This document shows, piece by piece, positions 7,361-58,670 of a DNA stretch of 64,000 nucleotides; positions within the stretch are counted from its first letter, which is position 1, and every line of letters begins with the position of its first letter. Source of the stretch: a virus; the IMG/VR virus record IMGVR_UViG_3300030329_004647, positions 62,001 through 126,000 of that record. One strand, given 5' to 3'. The notes beneath the pieces are model-generated. The model saw only the letters and a program-made list of their open reading frames with translations, was not told the DNA's origin and did not search any database. The translations under genes were made by a program, and so were the position numbers.

Positions 7361-8008
7361 ATGAAAATTATACTAACAGAAACGGAGCTAATTAATGTTA
7401 TAACAAAAGTTATGATTGAACAGGCAAATGAATCCCCAACTCACGGGATTCAAGAAGATAGTATGAATAAGTTAAAAAAACATATTAGTATCTATTTTTT
7501 ATATCTCAATAGCATGTCTGACCTGGAAGCATACTGGCAGTCAATACAAGACGAAGGAGCTTTAACAGTTTATCTATATGGTAGAGAAAATCCAATTAAA
7601 ACAGATTTACATAGTGGTTTAAAGATTGCAGGTTTGGACAACCCCTTAAATGATAGAGGTAACAGAATGGATGCAAACACAGTTATATACACCCTGTTAA
7701 CAAATTATTTCCATAATGGAGGTAAAAATTGGAAAAGAGGTGATAATATAGAGTTGGTTCCAGCTTATTCCCACTCAGTAGACGTTACATTTGAAGAAGA
7801 TGTTGTTGAGTACGGTACAGTATTTTTGGATATATACACACCAACAGTAGAAAAAGCTCAAGAACTGGCATTAGGTCCTGACAATTATAACTTTGAAGTA
7901 GACCGACAAACTGATGACCATGATTATACTGGAGACCGTAGAAATCAGGAAATAACAGACCTACAAACTAATAAACACGAGTTAACTCCACAAATGTTTG
8001 GTTTTTAA
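7361..8008 (+). CDS. Leader-bearing hypothetical protein (LTE type)
   Basis: 215 residues, starting 1 nt after the previous stop. Leader MKIILTETELINVITKVMIE. The rest has mixed alpha/beta character (GALTVYLYGRENP, VDVTFEEDVVEYGTVFLDIY) with a His/Asp-rich tail; no family recognised. Its stop overlaps the start of the VanY-like gene (TAATG), so the two are probably translationally coupled. Confidence 0.65.
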   Translation: MKIILTETELINVITKVMIEQANESPTHGIQEDSMNKLKKHISIYFLYLNSMSDLEAYWQSIQDEGALTVYLYGRENPIKTDLHSGLKIAGLDNPLNDRGNRMDANTVIYTLLTNYFHNGGKNWKRGDNIELVPAYSHSVDVTFEEDVVEYGTVFLDIYTPTVEKAQELALGPDNYNFEVDRQTDDHDYTGDRRNQEITDLQTNKHELTPQMFGF

Positions 8009-8601
8009 TGAAAATTTTAGAATCTGAAAAATATAGAATTAAAAAACTTTACAATATTTTAGAACAGACTGAAAAGGGTAGGTACTACCAAATGTTAACA
8101 CCCGAAATACAAAAAGCTTTAAAAGATTTATATGACAGATATGGTATAGATATAAAAGACAGTCATCTACAAAAAGAATTTGAACAAGAAGGACAATACA
8201 GAGAAGATGCTGGAGGAGTAAATCCTTATGCTAAAGAAGCTGTAGACCAACTAGTTAAAGACGCTCAAGAAAAATTTCCCAACATCCCTGAAGTACAAAA
8301 GGGTATTTTGTCGGGTTATAGAAGTTATGATAGACAAGTAGATAATTTTGGTAAAAAAGCTAAAAAAAGAGGTATAGAAGATACCCAGAAATATAACACC
8401 ATACCTGGATTTTCTGAACATCACACAGGTAAAGCGTTTGATATTTTTAGTCTAACTGATAGTTTTTGGAACAACAATCCAGATGTTAAAGATTGGGTTG
8501 CTGAAAACGCTGGTATGTATGGGTTTAATGTAACTTATAGTGCAGAAGGAACTCTACGAATGGAAGAACCATGGCATTTATATTATTATGGAATGGATTA
8601 A
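8008..8601 (+). CDS. VanY-type D,D-/L,D-carboxypeptidase with leader
   Basis: 197 residues. Leader MKILESEKYRIKKLYNILEQ (possible cleavage after ILE). Residues 98-191 carry the zinc peptidase signature of the VanY/peptidase M15 family: SGYRSYDRQ (102-110), SEHHTGKAFD (136-145, zinc His and Asp) and EPWH (187-190). The family trims peptidoglycan stem peptides. With a virion-type leader and late promoter, it is probably carried in the particle and acts on the cell wall at entry, or is an endolysin component. Function assignment is firm, timing is inference. Confidence 0.88.
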   Translation: MKILESEKYRIKKLYNILEQTEKGRYYQMLTPEIQKALKDLYDRYGIDIKDSHLQKEFEQEGQYREDAGGVNPYAKEAVDQLVKDAQEKFPNIPEVQKGILSGYRSYDRQVDNFGKKAKKRGIEDTQKYNTIPGFSEHHTGKAFDIFSLTDSFWNNNPDVKDWVAENAGMYGFNVTYSAEGTLRMEEPWHLYYYGMD

Positions 8602-16373: not shown

Positions 16374-16673
16374 ATGAATCAAACAATAGAAAAAAATACT
16401 ATAAAAAAAGAAGGGGTAATGTTAGTGGATTTTTGGGCTGAATGGTGTGGACCGTGTAAAATGTTAGGTCCCATTATTGATGACGTAGCTAACCTATTCC
16501 CTAACAACGTTACTAAAATAAATGTAGACCATAATCAGGAAATAGCAGCTGAATATGGAATCAGGTCAATACCAACGATAATTATATTTAAAAATGGTGA
16601 GGTAATGGAAAAAATATTAGGTATAAGAAATAAAAACGAATATATTGATAAATTAAAGTATTATTTAAATTAA
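16374..16673 (+). CDS. trxA: Thioredoxin
   Basis: 99 residues, a full small thioredoxin fold. Active site WCGPC at 24-28 within VDFWAEWCGPCKM, and the cis-Pro loop RSIPT. Reduces disulfides; in phages it may supply electrons to ribonucleotide reductase or act as polymerase clamp. It heads a late operon with the two leader-bearing genes that follow directly (stop and next ATG are adjacent). Confidence 0.93.
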   Translation: MNQTIEKNTIKKEGVMLVDFWAEWCGPCKMLGPIIDDVANLFPNNVTKINVDHNQEIAAEYGIRSIPTIIIFKNGEVMEKILGIRNKNEYIDKLKYYLN

Positions 16674-16991
16674 ATGGCAAAGATAGTATTAACAGAAAAA
16701 CAACTCCAAAATATCGTTAATGAAGTCATCGGTTTCACTACCAGTTACAAACAAGAAGCTGAGGATGAGTTAAAATCATTTATAAATGTCGTTGGCGGAC
16801 CAATTTTAAATATGAGTAAAAGTAAAGCTATACACGCGGACGACGTTATAGCTCAAAGAATTTATCAACTAACTACTGAAGGTGGAGAATTACACACATT
16901 AACACAAGAGTTAATAGACCTGTTAGAATCCTTACCAGATAAAAAACCTTATAAAGGAGGGATAGGGTTTAGAATGCCTGACAAAAAATAA
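16674..16991 (+). CDS. Small leader-bearing late protein (VLTE type)
   Basis: 105 residues beginning right after the thioredoxin stop. Leader MAKIVLTEKQLQNIVNEVIG. The body is helical (AEDELKSFINVVGGPILNMS, ELHTLTQELIDLLESL) with a basic Gly-rich tail. No family recognised. Confidence 0.65.
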   Translation: MAKIVLTEKQLQNIVNEVIGFTTSYKQEAEDELKSFINVVGGPILNMSKSKAIHADDVIAQRIYQLTTEGGELHTLTQELIDLLESLPDKKPYKGGIGFRMPDKK

Positions 16992-16997
16992 AATATT

Positions 16998-17294
16998 ATG
17001 ATACTAACACAAAAAGAAAAAAATAGAATTAGAAAATTACATAAAGAACAGTCTATTGTTAAAGAAGCAACTGCGTCTGATAATAGTGGAAGTTATGAAG
17101 CTCCATTAACACATGAAAGAGAACACGATTTAGTGGGGATAGAGGTAATAGACACAGCACCTACTATTGATGTGGTTAGTATAGTCGATGATAGTGACGA
17201 AGGATTGGAAATTGATTTAGATAGTTTATTTGACGAACTAGCTATGTTTAATGTTGAGGACGACTCTAGTGATTTTTTTCCAGAAGACCTTTAG
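16998..17294 (+). CDS. Leader-bearing protein mimicking the mature capsid protein N-terminus
   Basis: 98 residues. Leader MILTQKEKNRIRKLHKEQSI, then VKE (21-23). Directly after it come ATASDNSGSYEAP, nearly the same as ATAADNSGSFET after I-N-E(60) in the major capsid protein, where T4-type maturation would cut. The remaining 60 residues are very acidic. I infer that the prohead protease cuts both at the same kind of site. A displaced capsid gene fragment is unlikely because only this dozen residues is shared. Overlaps the convergent NUDIX gene by 29 nt. Confidence 0.7.
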   Translation: MILTQKEKNRIRKLHKEQSIVKEATASDNSGSYEAPLTHEREHDLVGIEVIDTAPTIDVVSIVDDSDEGLEIDLDSLFDELAMFNVEDDSSDFFPEDL

Positions 17295-17727
17295 TTTTTT
17301 TAAACAACCCACAACCACATAAATCTAAATAATAATTAACCAAGTAACGAACTCTACTTGAACAACCTAGGAGTATAGCAGACACTTCTTTTTGATTAAT
17401 CCACTCACATCTTTCTATTCCTTCATTTTCATCAGGAACCAACTTACCACTATACTTTGTTTTCATCACAAACCAACTAGTTTCTTTTTGTAAAAAATTT
17501 TCTTTTAAAAAAACATGTCTAGTGTCTGTTAAATAAGAATGTAGTTTTAATTTTTTAAAAGGAATGCCTGTTTCTTCAGAAACTTCTCTAACAGCAGTTT
17601 CTTCAATAGATTCACCTAAATCTACTTTACCCTTTGGTAAATCCCAGTGACCCCTTCGGTGAATAAAAAGAATTTCTTCATTTTTATTAATAACTAACCC
17701 CCCCGCTGCTTTTATTATTTTTTTCAT
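17266..17727 (-). CDS. NUDIX hydrolase
   Basis: 153 residues with a complete Nudix box, residues 33-55 (G-KVDLG-E-x7-REVSEETGI), after the usual beta strand FIHRRGHWDLPKGK. Cleaves nucleoside diphosphate-X compounds with Mg; the exact substrate (dNTP, capped RNA, diadenosine polyphosphate) cannot be told. Full length for a single-domain member. Two Cys near the end (DLCGCGLFKK). Confidence 0.9.
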   Translation of the reverse strand: MKKIIKAAGGLVINKNEEILFIHRRGHWDLPKGKVDLGESIEETAVREVSEETGIPFKKLKLHSYLTDTRHVFLKENFLQKETSWFVMKTKYSGKLVPDENEGIERCEWINQKEVSAILLGCSSRVRYLVNYYLDLCGCGLFKKTKGLLEKNH

Positions 17728-17843: not shown

Positions 17844-18233
17844 ATGATAGTATATACACAAGAAAACTGTAAATTCTGTAAAGAACTTATAGATGAATTA
17901 ACAGAAAAAGAATACGAGTTCACACCAATAGACATTAATAAAGATGAGTATAGAGACGAATGGTTAAGAACCACAAGACTTACACTTATGCCTATGACAC
18001 CAACAGTTAAAATTAACGATGATATTTTATGTGCTGGTAGAGATTTTAGAGACGCTGCTCACTTTATAAAAATCTTAGAAAATATAGATGTTCATACAAA
18101 CCTAACACTAGAAGAAAGAATTTTTAGTATAGAGAGTAGTTTAAAAAATTTACAAATGACGGTAGGTAGGATAAATACCATTCTTAGTAGAGCTTCTCAA
18201 CCACAAGCACCACAAAAAAATATTAAGGAATAA
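17844..18233 (+). CDS. Glutaredoxin-like protein with coiled-coil tail
   Basis: 129 residues. Residues 1-80 are glutaredoxin: VYTQENCKFCKELIDEL with CKFC at 9-12, cis-Pro in MTPTVKIND, and a C-terminal CAGRDFRDAAHF. Residues 88-120 form an added helix (LEERIFSIESSLKNLQMTVG) probably mediating oligomerisation. Second small redox protein of the window. No clear promoter element before the ATG. Confidence 0.85.
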   Translation: MIVYTQENCKFCKELIDELTEKEYEFTPIDINKDEYRDEWLRTTRLTLMPMTPTVKINDDILCAGRDFRDAAHFIKILENIDVHTNLTLEERIFSIESSLKNLQMTVGRINTILSRASQPQAPQKNIKE

Positions 18234-18749: not shown

Positions 18750-20297
18750 GTGAAAAGTATTATACAAAAATTATTAAGAGAATCTAGTGGGTATTACGGA
18801 CACGTATTAACACAAAATTTACCTAAAGAATTGGACAATAGGTTATATACCTTATTACATATGTTAGGTGGTATGAACTTTATGGATGTTATTAAATTTG
18901 GAGAAAAGGCCAGTGAAGATGAAATTAATATTTTAACCACTAAGGTTATGCAATTTCCCTCAGAACAACATGAAATACTTAGAAATGCTGGAGGATACGA
19001 AATATTAAAAGACTCTAGTGCATACCAAGAAATTGTGGATATGATAAAATCTATAGCTTATAGAGACACTATAGATGAGTCATTAGACGACTTAAAATAC
19101 GCAGAAGAACCTAAAGAAAAACATGTTAGGAGAATGAATAGAGATTTAGGTCAGTTACACGGATTTCCCATACAAGTTTTTAAAAATATCCCACCACCTA
19201 AAAACGAATCAGAAACTACAGAAGAAGAAATCGTACATTTAGACTCTATCCCTGTGGATGAGAAATTTGTAAAAAATGCTGATGAAACTGAAGAATATTT
19301 TGAAAAGTTTCTTAAAACAAAAGGATTAGAATACCCAAAAGAAGATATAAAAATCTACCTACCAGGTGTAAGGTCTATCATCCTACAATTAAAATACTAC
19401 TACAATCGTCCTAGACCAGGACAAGTAGCAGACGCTAAAGGAATGGATTTTGACCCAGAAAGTTTAAAATCCGCCTCCACACCCTCCTACCCTTCTGGTC
19501 ACGCAACCCAAGGAAGGTTTATAGCTAGATACCTCTCAGACTTGTATCCCGAATATGAAAAAGATTTAATGAAAATAGGTGATGACATAGCTTACAGTAG
19601 AAATATGGCAAAGGTACACTACCCCAGTGATTCTGTGTTTGGAAAAGAATTGGGTGACTCATTATATCAGTATATAATAAAAAACCAACCACTCAATGAA
19701 GACGTACAATATGACAAAGAAGGATATCCCACTAATGACACAAATCCATACGTTCTTAGGTATATAACACCTAAAACTAAAAAGGCTTTATTTAAACATT
19801 GGGACTCTTTAGGTAATATGGAGTGGTCTAGTTTAAAACTTTTTGGTATAGAGGGTGAGGATGAAGCATTTGATAATATTGCTGATGTACTGTATCCACT
19901 ATTAGCAATAGAATGGTTAGGTGGTGTTGAAAATACTCCTTTAGCTAAAGAAGATTGGATGGATATTAGGAGGGGAAGACAAACGAGAATACGATATAAA
20001 ATCATACCACTTAGATTTGATTACTTATTTGATGAAAGTGAAAGGTTTGGTGAACATGGTTACTCCTGTTATGATATAAAAGTTGTAATAGATTGGGGAA
20101 CACCAGGACCAGAAGAACTTCAAATGTTAGAAGAATTGGTCCCAAAAGACAAACGAAACAAATTAATGTCTTATGGGAACTATGATGAGAACACCCTTGA
20201 ACTCATAGAACAATTATGGGAAACTACTGAGCACATAAGGGGTGATGTTGGTGTTATGCAGTTTTGTCGACTAGAAATTGAGGTTGTTAACCCTTAA
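18750..20297 (+). CDS. PAP2-type phosphatase with leader, two-domain
   Basis: 515 residues from GTG (start fixed by the late element 4 nt upstream and by the leader MKSIIQKLLRESS). Residues 195-310 carry the three PAP2/haloperoxidase motifs: KYYYNRPRP (215-223), PSYPSGHA (245-252), SRNMAKVHYPSD (283-294). Such enzymes dephosphorylate lipid or nucleotide phosphates, or act on undecaprenyl pyrophosphate. No membrane helices, so it is a soluble class A-like form. The C-terminal 190 residues are an unrecognised domain. Inferred late, possibly packaged. Confidence 0.85.
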   Translation: MKSIIQKLLRESSGYYGHVLTQNLPKELDNRLYTLLHMLGGMNFMDVIKFGEKASEDEINILTTKVMQFPSEQHEILRNAGGYEILKDSSAYQEIVDMIKSIAYRDTIDESLDDLKYAEEPKEKHVRRMNRDLGQLHGFPIQVFKNIPPPKNESETTEEEIVHLDSIPVDEKFVKNADETEEYFEKFLKTKGLEYPKEDIKIYLPGVRSIILQLKYYYNRPRPGQVADAKGMDFDPESLKSASTPSYPSGHATQGRFIARYLSDLYPEYEKDLMKIGDDIAYSRNMAKVHYPSDSVFGKELGDSLYQYIIKNQPLNEDVQYDKEGYPTNDTNPYVLRYITPKTKKALFKHWDSLGNMEWSSLKLFGIEGEDEAFDNIADVLYPLLAIEWLGGVENTPLAKEDWMDIRRGRQTRIRYKIIPLRFDYLFDESERFGEHGYSCYDIKVVIDWGTPGPEELQMLEELVPKDKRNKLMSYGNYDENTLELIEQLWETTEHIRGDVGVMQFCRLEIEVVNP

Positions 20298-33970: not shown

Positions 33971-34777
33971 ATGAAATTTATGATTAAAGAAGAGATAAAT
34001 AGAATTAAAAATTTAATGTTAGTTAATGAAGAAAATGAGATGGGTCAATATATGGATTCCACATATCTTAAAACATCCGAACAAGCAGGGATAGGAGATG
34101 AAGAAACAGAAGTAATTGTATTTAACACAATTAAAGATGCTATAGAACATAATATGAAATTAGTGATGTTAAGACCAGAATATGTTGAAGTAGCTCGTAA
34201 CCTTATAGATAGTGAAGGAGCAAATGTTTTAGTGGGTACGGTTATAGATTTTCCATATGGGAACGGTAGTGTAACTGATAAAGTACAAGAAGCTAAACAA
34301 GCTGTAAATAATGGAGCAGATGAATTAGATTTTGTAATAGATTATAGAGCTTATTTAAGAGGAAATGTAGAAAAAGTTAGTAGAGAGATTAAAGAAGGTT
34401 CTGAAATTGGATTAAAAAATGGAAAAACAGTAAAATGGATTTTAGAGACTGCAGCCTTAACTGAAGACCAAATAGGGGAATTAACTTCTATAATTAGAGA
34501 TGTGATTATTGACAATTTTGGTGAAGGTGAAGCCGCAAATGTTTTTGTAAAAACATCTACAGGATTTTTTACACCAGAAGGGGGTGGTCCTGGAGGAGCT
34601 ACTGAAGAAGCGGTATCTATTATGACAAATAACGCAGGTCCCTTAAAGGTTAAAGCATCTGGTGGTATTTATAGTCAGGACGATTTGAAAAAAATGGTGG
34701 GAGCTGGAGCAAGTCGTATAGGTACTTCAGCAGCTAAAGAAATAATGTTAGGTCAAAAAACAGAAAAGGATTATTAA
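33971..34777 (+). CDS. deoC: Deoxyribose-phosphate aldolase with virion-type leader
   Basis: 268 residues. Leader MKFMIKEEINRIKNLMLVNE (ends L-V-N-E) precedes a complete DeoC barrel: MDSTYLKT (28-35), LRPEYV, GTVIDFPYGNGS (89-100), GADELDFVID (115-124), KWILET, FVKTSTGF (Schiff-base Lys 194), KASGGI (Lys 228) and GASRIGTSAA. Splits deoxyribose 5-phosphate into acetaldehyde and glyceraldehyde 3-phosphate. Bacterial DeoC lacks such a leader. Stop overlaps the next start (TAATG), so it is coupled to the deoxyribosyltransferase-like gene. Confidence 0.92.
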   Translation: MKFMIKEEINRIKNLMLVNEENEMGQYMDSTYLKTSEQAGIGDEETEVIVFNTIKDAIEHNMKLVMLRPEYVEVARNLIDSEGANVLVGTVIDFPYGNGSVTDKVQEAKQAVNNGADELDFVIDYRAYLRGNVEKVSREIKEGSEIGLKNGKTVKWILETAALTEDQIGELTSIIRDVIIDNFGEGEAANVFVKTSTGFFTPEGGGPGGATEEAVSIMTNNAGPLKVKASGGIYSQDDLKKMVGAGASRIGTSAAKEIMLGQKTEKDY

Positions 34778-54580: not shown

Positions 54581-54588
54581 TATTTATT
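54581..54588 (+). promoter_or_regulatory. Late promoter TATTTATT
   Basis: 13 nt before ATG 54602; overlaps the TTG at 54587, which is therefore not the start. Confidence 0.5.
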
Positions 54589-54601
54589 GAAAAAGAATTA
54601 T

Positions 54602-55303
54602 ATGAAGATTTTAGGACCCAAAGATATTGGCCACGGATTATTAATAGAATATGATGCTGGACATCTCTCACCACAAGACAATGTTAAAGTAATTAAAGAG
54701 ATGAAAAACTCTGAGTTTTCTGATGAAGTGTATATGTATTGTATCTTACAAAAATATGGAACACCAAATAGAAACGGGAGAGTATACCCAAAAAGAATAT
54801 TAGAAAGAGAAAATGATAGATACCAAGACGTTATTAAAAGAGGAAGTGCTATTTCCGAACTAAACCACCCAGAATCTTCACTAATTGATTTAGAAAGAAC
54901 TTCTCATGTTATCACAGAAACTTTTTGGGATGGTAACAAACTAATGGGAAGACTAAAATTGTTAACAACTCCAGGATACCACCAAAAAGGAATAGTATCA
55001 TCTATGGGGGATATCGCAGCTAATTTATTAAGACAAGGAATCACTTTAGGTATTTCATCTAGAGGAGTTGGTTCACTAAAGAAAAGCGGAGAACACAATG
55101 AGGTACAAGATGATTTTGAATTGATATGTTTTGACCTTGTTTCATCACCATCTACACCAGGCTCTTATCTATTTAAAGACATGAGTGAAGTTGATAATTA
55201 TGATGAAGTATTAGAGACCGTAAAAGAAAAAGATTCATTCGACTCAAAAATAGATAGGTCGCTTTCTCTAATGGATAGATTAGATAACTTTCTTAATCAT
55301 TAA
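54602..55303 (+). CDS. Prohead maturation protease (gp21-like)
   Basis: 233 residues from ATG 54602. Serine protease of the T4 gp21/herpesvirus assemblin type: NRNGRVYPKRIL (56-67), SELNHPESS with catalytic His 89, and GISSRGVGSL with catalytic Ser at 152 or 153. Cuts scaffold, capsid protein and internal proteins, in T4 after (Leu/Ile)-x-Glu. Sits between virion genes and the scaffold gene. Its presence underlies the idea that the many hydrophobic-x-Glu leader ends are cleavage sites. Confidence 0.92.
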   Translation: MKILGPKDIGHGLLIEYDAGHLSPQDNVKVIKEMKNSEFSDEVYMYCILQKYGTPNRNGRVYPKRILERENDRYQDVIKRGSAISELNHPESSLIDLERTSHVITETFWDGNKLMGRLKLLTTPGYHQKGIVSSMGDIAANLLRQGITLGISSRGVGSLKKSGEHNEVQDDFELICFDLVSSPSTPGSYLFKDMSEVDNYDEVLETVKEKDSFDSKIDRSLSLMDRLDNFLNH

Positions 55304-56837: not shown

Positions 56838-58670
56838 ATGGGAGCATTATTAGAATCCGGAATGGTTGGTAACATTGGGTTAAAACACCTAAAAGTTATC
56901 AAAGAGGATACAATTAATAAATGGGACAAATTAGGTTTCCTTGATGGCCTTAAAGGTCATGGAAGAGAAAACATTGCTCAGCTTTTTGAAAATCAGGCAA
57001 CTCATTTAATCAATGAGGCGACTGCAGCTGACAACTCAGGTTCTTTCGAAACTGTAGTTTTCCCTATTATTAGAAGAGTATTCTCAAAATTATTAGCTAA
57101 CGAAATCGTATCTGTACAGGCAATGAACTTACCAATTGGTAAATTATTCTACTTCGTACCAAAAGTATCAAGTAGAGTTGGTGAGGGTGGTATGTATGAA
57201 GGTTTCGCTCCATTTGGAGCACCAGGTGCACCGGCAACACAAACGCCAAGTTCACCTACATCAGCTACAACAATAAACTTATATGACAACTTCTACGCAA
57301 CTAACGCACCAATGGGTGCTGAAGATGGTCTTTATGACATCTCAAAAGGTTCGTACTCAGGTTATATCACAACTAATCTACAAGTTATGGACTGGAACGC
57401 TTCAGCTCGTACTTTAGGTTATGCTGCGACTAACTCTACAACTGTAACGTCATTAACATCAACAACTGATTGTTTAAAATCTGTGATTATTGGAGTTACT
57501 GGATTCCAGTCAACAGGTGAAGGTAAATTAATCGGACCGATGGGTAACGAAATAGATACTGAAGATTTCTTATCTTCTTTAACTTTAATTACTGAAAACG
57601 CTACAACTTGTAAGTCAGGTTCAACTAACTATAACGCTGGTGACAACATGTTATTCAGAGTTGTTACTCAAAAATACGGTAGGTCAATTGCGAACCCAAC
57701 AAGTTCGAAAACATCTACAGCTTTCCCTGGTGGAGACTTTGACAGTATTTGTGATGTAACAGGTACAATTTACTTAGAGGCTGACCTTTCGTGTCCAGCT
57801 TGTATTAATTGTGACTCTGTAGACGGATATGTTTGTTCATACTACGCAAATCGTGAGTTCCAAAATGAAACATCACCATTTAGTGCAGCGTGGAGAGTTT
57901 ACAAAGACCTAGAATTTGAAGAAAAAATGGGTGAAGTTTCTTTCGACCTTGAATCTGTTACAGTTTCGGTTACTGAAAGAAAATTAAGAGCTCAATGGTC
58001 ACCAGAGCTTGCACAAGACGTGTCAGCATTCCATAATATCGACGCTGAAGCTGAGTTAACTGCTTTACTTTCTGAAGAAGTTGCTGCTGAAATCGATAGA
58101 GAAATCTTAAGAGACCTTAGAAAAGGAGCAGCTTGGGATTTAAGATGGGATTACAATGGATGGAAGAGATTCCAATCAGGTCAAGCACCATATACTCAAA
58201 AAGACTGGAATCAAACGTTAATCACTGCGGTTAACCAAATTTCAGCTCAGATTCACAAATCTACATTGAGAGGTGGAGCTAACTGGATTGTTTGTTCTTC
58301 TGAGGTATCTGCAATATTTGATGACTTGGAGTACTTCCACGTGTCAAATGCAGCACCAGACCAAGACCAATACAACATGGGTATTGAAAAAGTTGGAACT
58401 CTAGGAGGTAGATATACTGTATATAGAGACCCTTATTTCCCACCTAACCAATTATTACTTGGTCACAAGGGAACGTCATTACTTGACACAGGGTATGTTT
58501 ACGCACCGTATGTACCGTTACAATTAACACCAACAATGTATAATCCATTTAACTTTACACCAATCAAGGGTATCATGACTAGATACGCTAAGAAAATGGT
58601 TAACAACCGTTTCTATGGTAGAGTTACTATCGATGGAGTTAAAACATTCGATGTTAAAGAGTTAAGATAA
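56838..58670 (+). CDS. Major capsid protein (gp23-like)
   Basis: 610 residues. N-terminal propeptide 1-60 (FENQ at 50-53 as in T4 gp23), ending I-N-E 58-60, the expected protease site; the mature protein would start ATAADNSGSFET. HK97-fold signatures of gp23: LRAQWSPELAQDVSAFHNID, AEAELTALLSEEVAAEIDRE, GGRYTVYRDPYFP, YAPYVPLQLTP, GIMTRYAKK. An insertion at about 200-340 with Cys pairs (CPACINCDS) is larger than in T4 and may form a surface domain. Abundant protein, and codon use shows more C-ending codons (AAC, TTC) than neighbours. Confidence 0.95.
   Translation: MGALLESGMVGNIGLKHLKVIKEDTINKWDKLGFLDGLKGHGRENIAQLFENQATHLINEATAADNSGSFETVVFPIIRRVFSKLLANEIVSVQAMNLPIGKLFYFVPKVSSRVGEGGMYEGFAPFGAPGAPATQTPSSPTSATTINLYDNFYATNAPMGAEDGLYDISKGSYSGYITTNLQVMDWNASARTLGYAATNSTTVTSLTSTTDCLKSVIIGVTGFQSTGEGKLIGPMGNEIDTEDFLSSLTLITENATTCKSGSTNYNAGDNMLFRVVTQKYGRSIANPTSSKTSTAFPGGDFDSICDVTGTIYLEADLSCPACINCDSVDGYVCSYYANREFQNETSPFSAAWRVYKDLEFEEKMGEVSFDLESVTVSVTERKLRAQWSPELAQDVSAFHNIDAEAELTALLSEEVAAEIDREILRDLRKGAAWDLRWDYNGWKRFQSGQAPYTQKDWNQTLITAVNQISAQIHKSTLRGGANWIVCSSEVSAIFDDLEYFHVSNAAPDQDQYNMGIEKVGTLGGRYTVYRDPYFPPNQLLLGHKGTSLLDTGYVYAPYVPLQLTPTMYNPFNFTPIKGIMTRYAKKMVNNRFYGRVTIDGVKTFDVKELR

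Follow-up and report, generated by a model that had tools for sequence, protein, structure and literature searches.

Genes at the locus

The window, that is, the whole stretch of 64,000 nucleotides that was analysed, comprises bases 62001–126000 of a 232,028-base T4-like virus record. A gp20-type portal (Portal_T4, 3.7e-77) and a terminase gene are encoded within the window, together with the following features, numbered from its first base.

8008–8601: VanY D-Ala-D-Ala carboxypeptidase with a leader of the class described below
16674–16991, + strand: upstream neighbour of P0001 with a different, LTExxL-type leader (52% identity to its counterpart in contig L234)
16998–17294, + strand: small acidic protein P0001, 98 amino acids (open reading frame, translation, charge, and orthologues in four other viral contigs)
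16998–17066, + strand: P0001 leader, residues 1–23 (MILTQKEKNRIRKLHKEQSIVKE), net charge +4, ending in V-K-E (predicted helix)
17067–17099, + strand: P0001 residues 24–34, ATASDNSGSYE, the predicted mature N-terminus (9/11 identity to capsid residues 61–71)
18750–20297: PAP2 domain protein with a different short leader
33971–34777: DeoC-type aldolase with a leader of the same class as VanY
54587–55303, + strand: prohead protease of the gp21/S77 family, the presumed enzyme (Pfam Peptidase_S77, 4.4e-25; PHROG head maturation protease, 6.1e-44)
56838–58670, + strand: major capsid protein precursor of the T4 gp23 family, 610 amino acids (Pfam Gp23, 5.4e-71; PHROG major head protein)
56838–57017, + strand: capsid propeptide, residues 1–60, ending in LINE (LINE invariant in the homologues read)
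57018–57050, + strand: capsid residues 61–71, ATAADNSGSFE, the predicted mature N-terminus (N-arm/N-fist region by T4 homology)

Some 40 kb separate the P0001 gene from the capsid gene downstream. A thioredoxin gene (16374–16673) precedes the gene at 16674–16991, a convergent NUDIX gene (17266–17727) overlaps the 3′ end of the P0001 gene, and a glutaredoxin-type gene (17844–18233) lies beyond it. In L234, the genes for a thioredoxin, the homologue of 16674–16991, the P0001 orthologue and a glutaredoxin-like protein are likewise all close together; a synteny search for further P0001 orthologues returned L234 again and nothing else.

The predicted structure of P0001 is a helix (residues 5–29; block pLDDT 79 and 71 over residues 1–20) with disorder after the leader. 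The predicted mature part comprises 75 amino acids with a net charge of −22, and no [ILV]xE occurs in residues 24–98. P0001 was without a match in Pfam or PHROG, and a tblastn search of 50,697 phage records (E up to 1) returned none.

A segment shared by P0001 and the capsid protein

The initial annotation had proposed that P0001 copies the maturation site of the capsid protein, and the segments that follow the two glutamates are nearly identical. P0001 reads MILTQKEKNRIRKLHKEQSIVKE/ATASDNSGSYEAPL... (longer mature start, ATASDNSGSYEAPLTH) and the capsid reads ...ENQATHLINE/ATAADNSGSFETVVFP... (longer mature start, ATAADNSGSFETVVFPIIRR), where the slash marks the predicted cut, after VKE (E23) in P0001 and after E60 in the capsid. 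Nine of the 11 residues are identical and the differences are A/S and F/Y; among 23,318 11-mers from the window's open reading frames, the runner-up to the capsid segment reached 6/11. The likeness is confined to the cleavage neighbourhood, as had been claimed, with the leader and the capsid propeptide aligning at the level of shuffled sequences (p = 0.41, local alignment). A profile comparison of both families returned a sole alignment that ends in the shared block (E 1e-4, probability only 58%), and P0001 had no gp23 profile match in Pfam, the convincing alignment being limited to the dozen residues. The shared segment is rich in small residues, which calls for caution in reading the match. 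P0001 also reaches 9/11 against the capsids of two other phages, placing the match inside the natural variation of the capsid family.

Identity under the 12 shared codons is 22/36 nucleotides, and one gene encodes both shared serines by AGT, the other by TCN; the different codons point to conservation or convergence under selection at the protein level, and recent gene conversion or duplication was rejected on these grounds. Homology between leader and propeptide was also rejected, as hhalign pulled the alignment into the leader, yet the local alignment scores equal those of shuffles.

Capsid cleavage site in relatives

Capsid proteins were found in 80 relatives, one locus of which starts inside the gene; all others have LINE at the site. 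The first residue after it (P1′) is Ala with the single exception of a Gln, followed by five or six variable small residues and an invariant G[SA]FE, while P3′–P7′ are free to vary among small residues. This conservation agrees with the proposal that the mature capsid would begin at A61. In the distant, cultured Microcystis phage Mel-JY01 and Flavobacterium immuto phages, [IL]xE/A-type starts are kept (ISE/AN, VSE/AN), and the G[SA]FE block is absent from their capsids.

In T4, gp23 loses 65 N-terminal residues (PMC9958956), gp21 cuts after L/I-X-E with nothing more needed (PMC9026906), and the N-fist spans residues 66–91 (PMC7136217). The capsid open reading frame of the window also matches gp23* structures (PDB), and when it is aligned with T4 gp23*, the RR of VVFPIIRR coincides with that of T4 PAVMGMVRR, so that the predicted mature capsid start falls in the N-fist region. 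Relative to T4 (PF07068), the propeptide here is 60 rather than 65 residues and the mature extension before the conserved arm is shorter, while both proteins have an [IL]xE/A site; P0001 has no homology to T4 gp23 beyond the dozen residues. The predicted capsid structure was of low confidence (pLDDT 49) and was not used.

P0001 orthologues

Absence of the match from relatives had been named beforehand as grounds against it; four distant orthologues retain E/xT-x5-G-[SA]-Y-xx-P. These read LNE/QTSSSSAGAYETPM in L084, LYE/ATTASASGSYSQPL in L085 and L223, which are closely related to each other, and TTE/ATSTASSGAYEQPL in L234 (L-T-T-E, with Thr at P3). L223 and L234 were found via the signature itself and the other orthologues via a short match that includes it. 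The invariant positions of the five-sequence alignment (M1, K8, I11, E23, T25, G31, Y33, P36, and E49) make the cut site and the residues that follow it the best kept part of the P0001 family.

The orthologues of L085 (1183–1764, − strand) and L223 (6665–7300, − strand) are fusions with another leader-like segment, ERMRRLHRENSIIEQ in the case of L085, which suggests a two-unit precursor. In virus G004 (L281 1489–2130) a second leader protein, LQE/KITRGGKGGTNSSSSGSYISTGAFEP, directly follows the orthologue and is apparently a diverged tandem copy.

The shared dozen residues had also been expected to co-vary between the two proteins. Co-variation of P0001-type proteins with the capsid of their own phage was significant overall (p = 0.001), a value that mixes clades, and not within the individual groups (p = 0.085 and 0.071); at this level it is suggestive at most.

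Leader class and prohead protease

A leader class was defined by its RIxxLH-like ('RIRxLH') core only, without reference to any site. All 12 members of the class in the genome carry [ILV]xE within ~20 residues after the leader (shuffle mean, 4.4; 12 reached in 0 of 5000 shuffles), compared to 37% for a comparable stretch of non-leader open reading frames, and with an S77 protease in the window this bears out the proposed tie between the leader family and the prohead protease. The sites are close to the T4 gp21 L/I-X-E rule, from which the P3 Val of P0001 is a mild departure. The class sits on otherwise unrelated mature parts, such as VanY and DeoC domains. P0001 alone among the 12 has the capsid-like block; in the other leader proteins P1′ is mostly Q, S, E, N or G, and no G[SA][YF] stands at the corresponding position.

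Distribution of the signature

Viral contigs were scanned for E-A-T-x5-G-x-Y-type patterns, and the scans returned 58, 43 and 10 stretches, a few of them chance-like. Besides the P0001 orthologues, the stretches include multi-domain proteins, in which the signature occurs with the same spacing as one or more internal copies, and products of genes that closely follow the capsid gene (for example, NINE/ATVSGGSGSYKPP). A tblastn search of cultured relatives with the C-terminal piece of one multi-domain protein returned no match. The match is not private to P0001 and the capsid, the signature being present in several protein families.

Since the scans fix the spacing, only modules beyond the reach of the first scan were counted. 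There were 31 such modules at spacing 5, many of them mutually related and hence not 31 independent events; no other spacing had more than nine, and the reversed control had none at spacing 5. P1 was Glu in 30/42 modules outside the scans, and most of the other 12 are, by eye, chance or unrelated matches or in a shifted register. Across the module set P1′ is most often Ala. P3 is hydrophobic in only 33/100 Glu modules, so that many of the multi-domain copies would be poor gp21-type sites. Virus G082 encodes four different proteins reading [ILV]xE/ATTx4-5G[SA][YF]. Overall, the recurrence of the signature at the start of several protein units makes it look like a selected element.

Several groups of proteins with the signature or a similar string deserve mention. 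In L116 (4424–5122, − strand), L158 (5116–5817, + strand), L258, and L273 the signature is accompanied by a second string that resembles the capsid, M[ND]xPIGK[LI][YF] (KMNLPIGKLYSM, KMDKPIGKIYSM and KMNTPIGKIFTM compared to AMNLPIGKLFYF in the capsid); Pfam Gp23 scored 22.6 bits against L116, just under the 24.4 cut-off. Proteins of L238, L047, and L170, encoded downstream of the capsid gene, have two units each; every unit begins close to a Glu, after which come small residues and G-x-Y-xx-P, with a later PFT motif in L047 and L170. Signature-type strings also occur in small proteins of tail-type clusters of GC-rich phages. Those of L210 (8447–8686), L211, L200, L221, L231, L197, and L152 (~60–100 amino acids, mostly on GC-rich phage contigs near tail-type genes) read E/AT-x-x-x-x-(V/A)-G-[SA]-Y-x-x-P-L, and no S78 protease was found in the five contigs searched. 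Since unrelated GC-rich phages have a similar string in proteins of their tail region, the string alone is no proof of a head role.

A proposed role in the phage head

On balance, P0001 is probably a T4-type internal head protein that is targeted by its leader and cleaved, exposing a capsid-like N-terminus. The helical, basic leader of 23 residues would serve as a capsid-targeting sequence (CTS), bringing P0001 into the prohead core. A gp21-type S77 protease would cut P0001 after V-K-E23 and the capsid after I-N-E60, as conservation of the sites suggests, and the cut would expose an N-terminus of the form A-T-x5-G-S-Y-E-x-P, a signature common with the mature capsid arm. Its use is most likely twofold, as an accessible protease site and as a short tag; in what is the weakest step, the tag may let the freed, acidic P0001 sit at the contacts that the mature capsid N-arm makes on its neighbours. 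Cleavage at E23 and E60 is well supported as far as sequence can carry it, docking through the predicted new N-terminus is plausible, and the signature probably serves head proteins both as a common cutting site and as a common tag at the N-terminus.

The initial annotation had offered shared protease recognition or a docking role for the match, and the sequence by itself is compatible with either. The near-invariant P1 Glu fits cleavage. The constancy of the spacing and the conserved distal G[SA][YF]xxP seem to point beyond a pure protease site, and both speak for docking, together with the second capsid-like string of some related proteins. A further point in favour of docking is that, when the T4 head expands, the N-terminal part of gp23* that cleavage has freed shifts outward and binds neighbouring subunits (PMC9958956). 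Against docking, the freed part of P0001 is predicted to be disordered, a hydrophobic P3 is infrequent among the modules, and co-variation within groups is not significant. An arrangement in which several head proteins of this T4-like lineage carry a copy of the capsid arm at the N-terminus freed by the prohead protease, and insert it where the shell binds such arms, perhaps at sites near the portal that have no capsid arm, would fit the second string but is rather doubtful; if true, a single protease event would both mature the shell and anchor the cargo. The signature might instead serve protease recognition only, as an extended site, E/A-T-(small)5-G, on which all substrates including the capsid converge and whose N-terminus is idle afterwards. 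The dominance of Glu at P1, which would be superfluous in a peptide used for docking alone, the mostly Ala P1′, the tie of the leader class to [ILV]xE and the unrelated codons, which fit convergence, all speak for this. We nevertheless consider it unlikely, since the other leaders end in [ILV]xE without the block, making the extended block unnecessary for a site, since T4 gp21 needs only L/I-X-E (PMC9026906), and since the conserved G[SA][YF]xxP keeps a constant spacing and is 8–13 residues away from the cut.

The likeness could also be a coincidence of low complexity, with a flexible Ser/Ala/Thr/Gly linker beside an exposed Glu and 9/11 a matter of luck in composition. The free variation of capsid P3′–P7′, the equal closeness of P0001 to two foreign capsids and the strings in unrelated GC-rich phage proteins would be expected on that account, but it is very improbable given that just 0.18% of capsid-module pairs reach 9/11, that composition explains neither the spacing peak at 5, absent from the reversed control, nor the invariant G, Y/F and P, and that no part of the P0001 orthologues is better conserved than the block. 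T4 gp67 is acidic, and P0001, which is likewise small and strongly acidic, mostly disordered by prediction and equipped with a gp21-like site, might be a gp67-like scaffold that is chopped and lost at maturation, the shared segment marking the first cut. This is quite improbable, as gp67 and gp22 are cut repeatedly (PMC9026906), whereas P0001 has a single predicted site, with no further [ILV]xE in its mature part, and its gene lies outside the head cluster.

Comparison with known systems and implications

The resemblance of P0001 to T4 IPI, IPII, IPIII, and Alt (PMC9026906) lies in a short N-terminal leader ending in hydrophobic-x-Glu, an S77 protease in the genome and one leader type on many unrelated proteins. 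The leader here differs in having its own consensus, E-K-N-R-I-R-x-L-H, and a length of ~20 residues compared to 10 in IPIII; further, the T4 internal proteins are basic whereas the mature part of P0001 is acidic, and its mature N-terminus is capsid-like, for which no T4 counterpart is reported in the literature searched. Pfam, PHROG and tblastn found no homology of P0001 to the T4 internal proteins or their CTS, and P0001 may thus resemble a CTS protein in its working rather than by demonstrated descent. In SPN3US and phiKZ, several head proteins also lose N-terminal propeptides to the prohead protease, including short ones of 20 and 24 residues, but the protease motif is another and the portions of the source available report no shared capsid-like mature N-terminus (PMC10052503).

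The signature is real, conserved and more general than one pair of proteins, and amounts to a variation on the way T4 targets and processes head proteins, not to a new kind of system; no prior description of it was found in the open-access literature searched. How proteins are placed and held in the T4-type head core is still called mysterious (PMC9958956), and the signature suggests an anchoring rule for head cargo. The leader-bearing enzymes (VanY, PAP2, and the DeoC-type aldolase) are candidates for head cargo, and if the rule holds, the VanY carboxypeptidase and the DeoC-type aldolase are candidates for delivered cargo. A signature common to the mature capsid and internal proteins, and readable from sequence, would make it easier to predict, for uncultured phages, which proteins are head cargo or substrates of the prohead protease.
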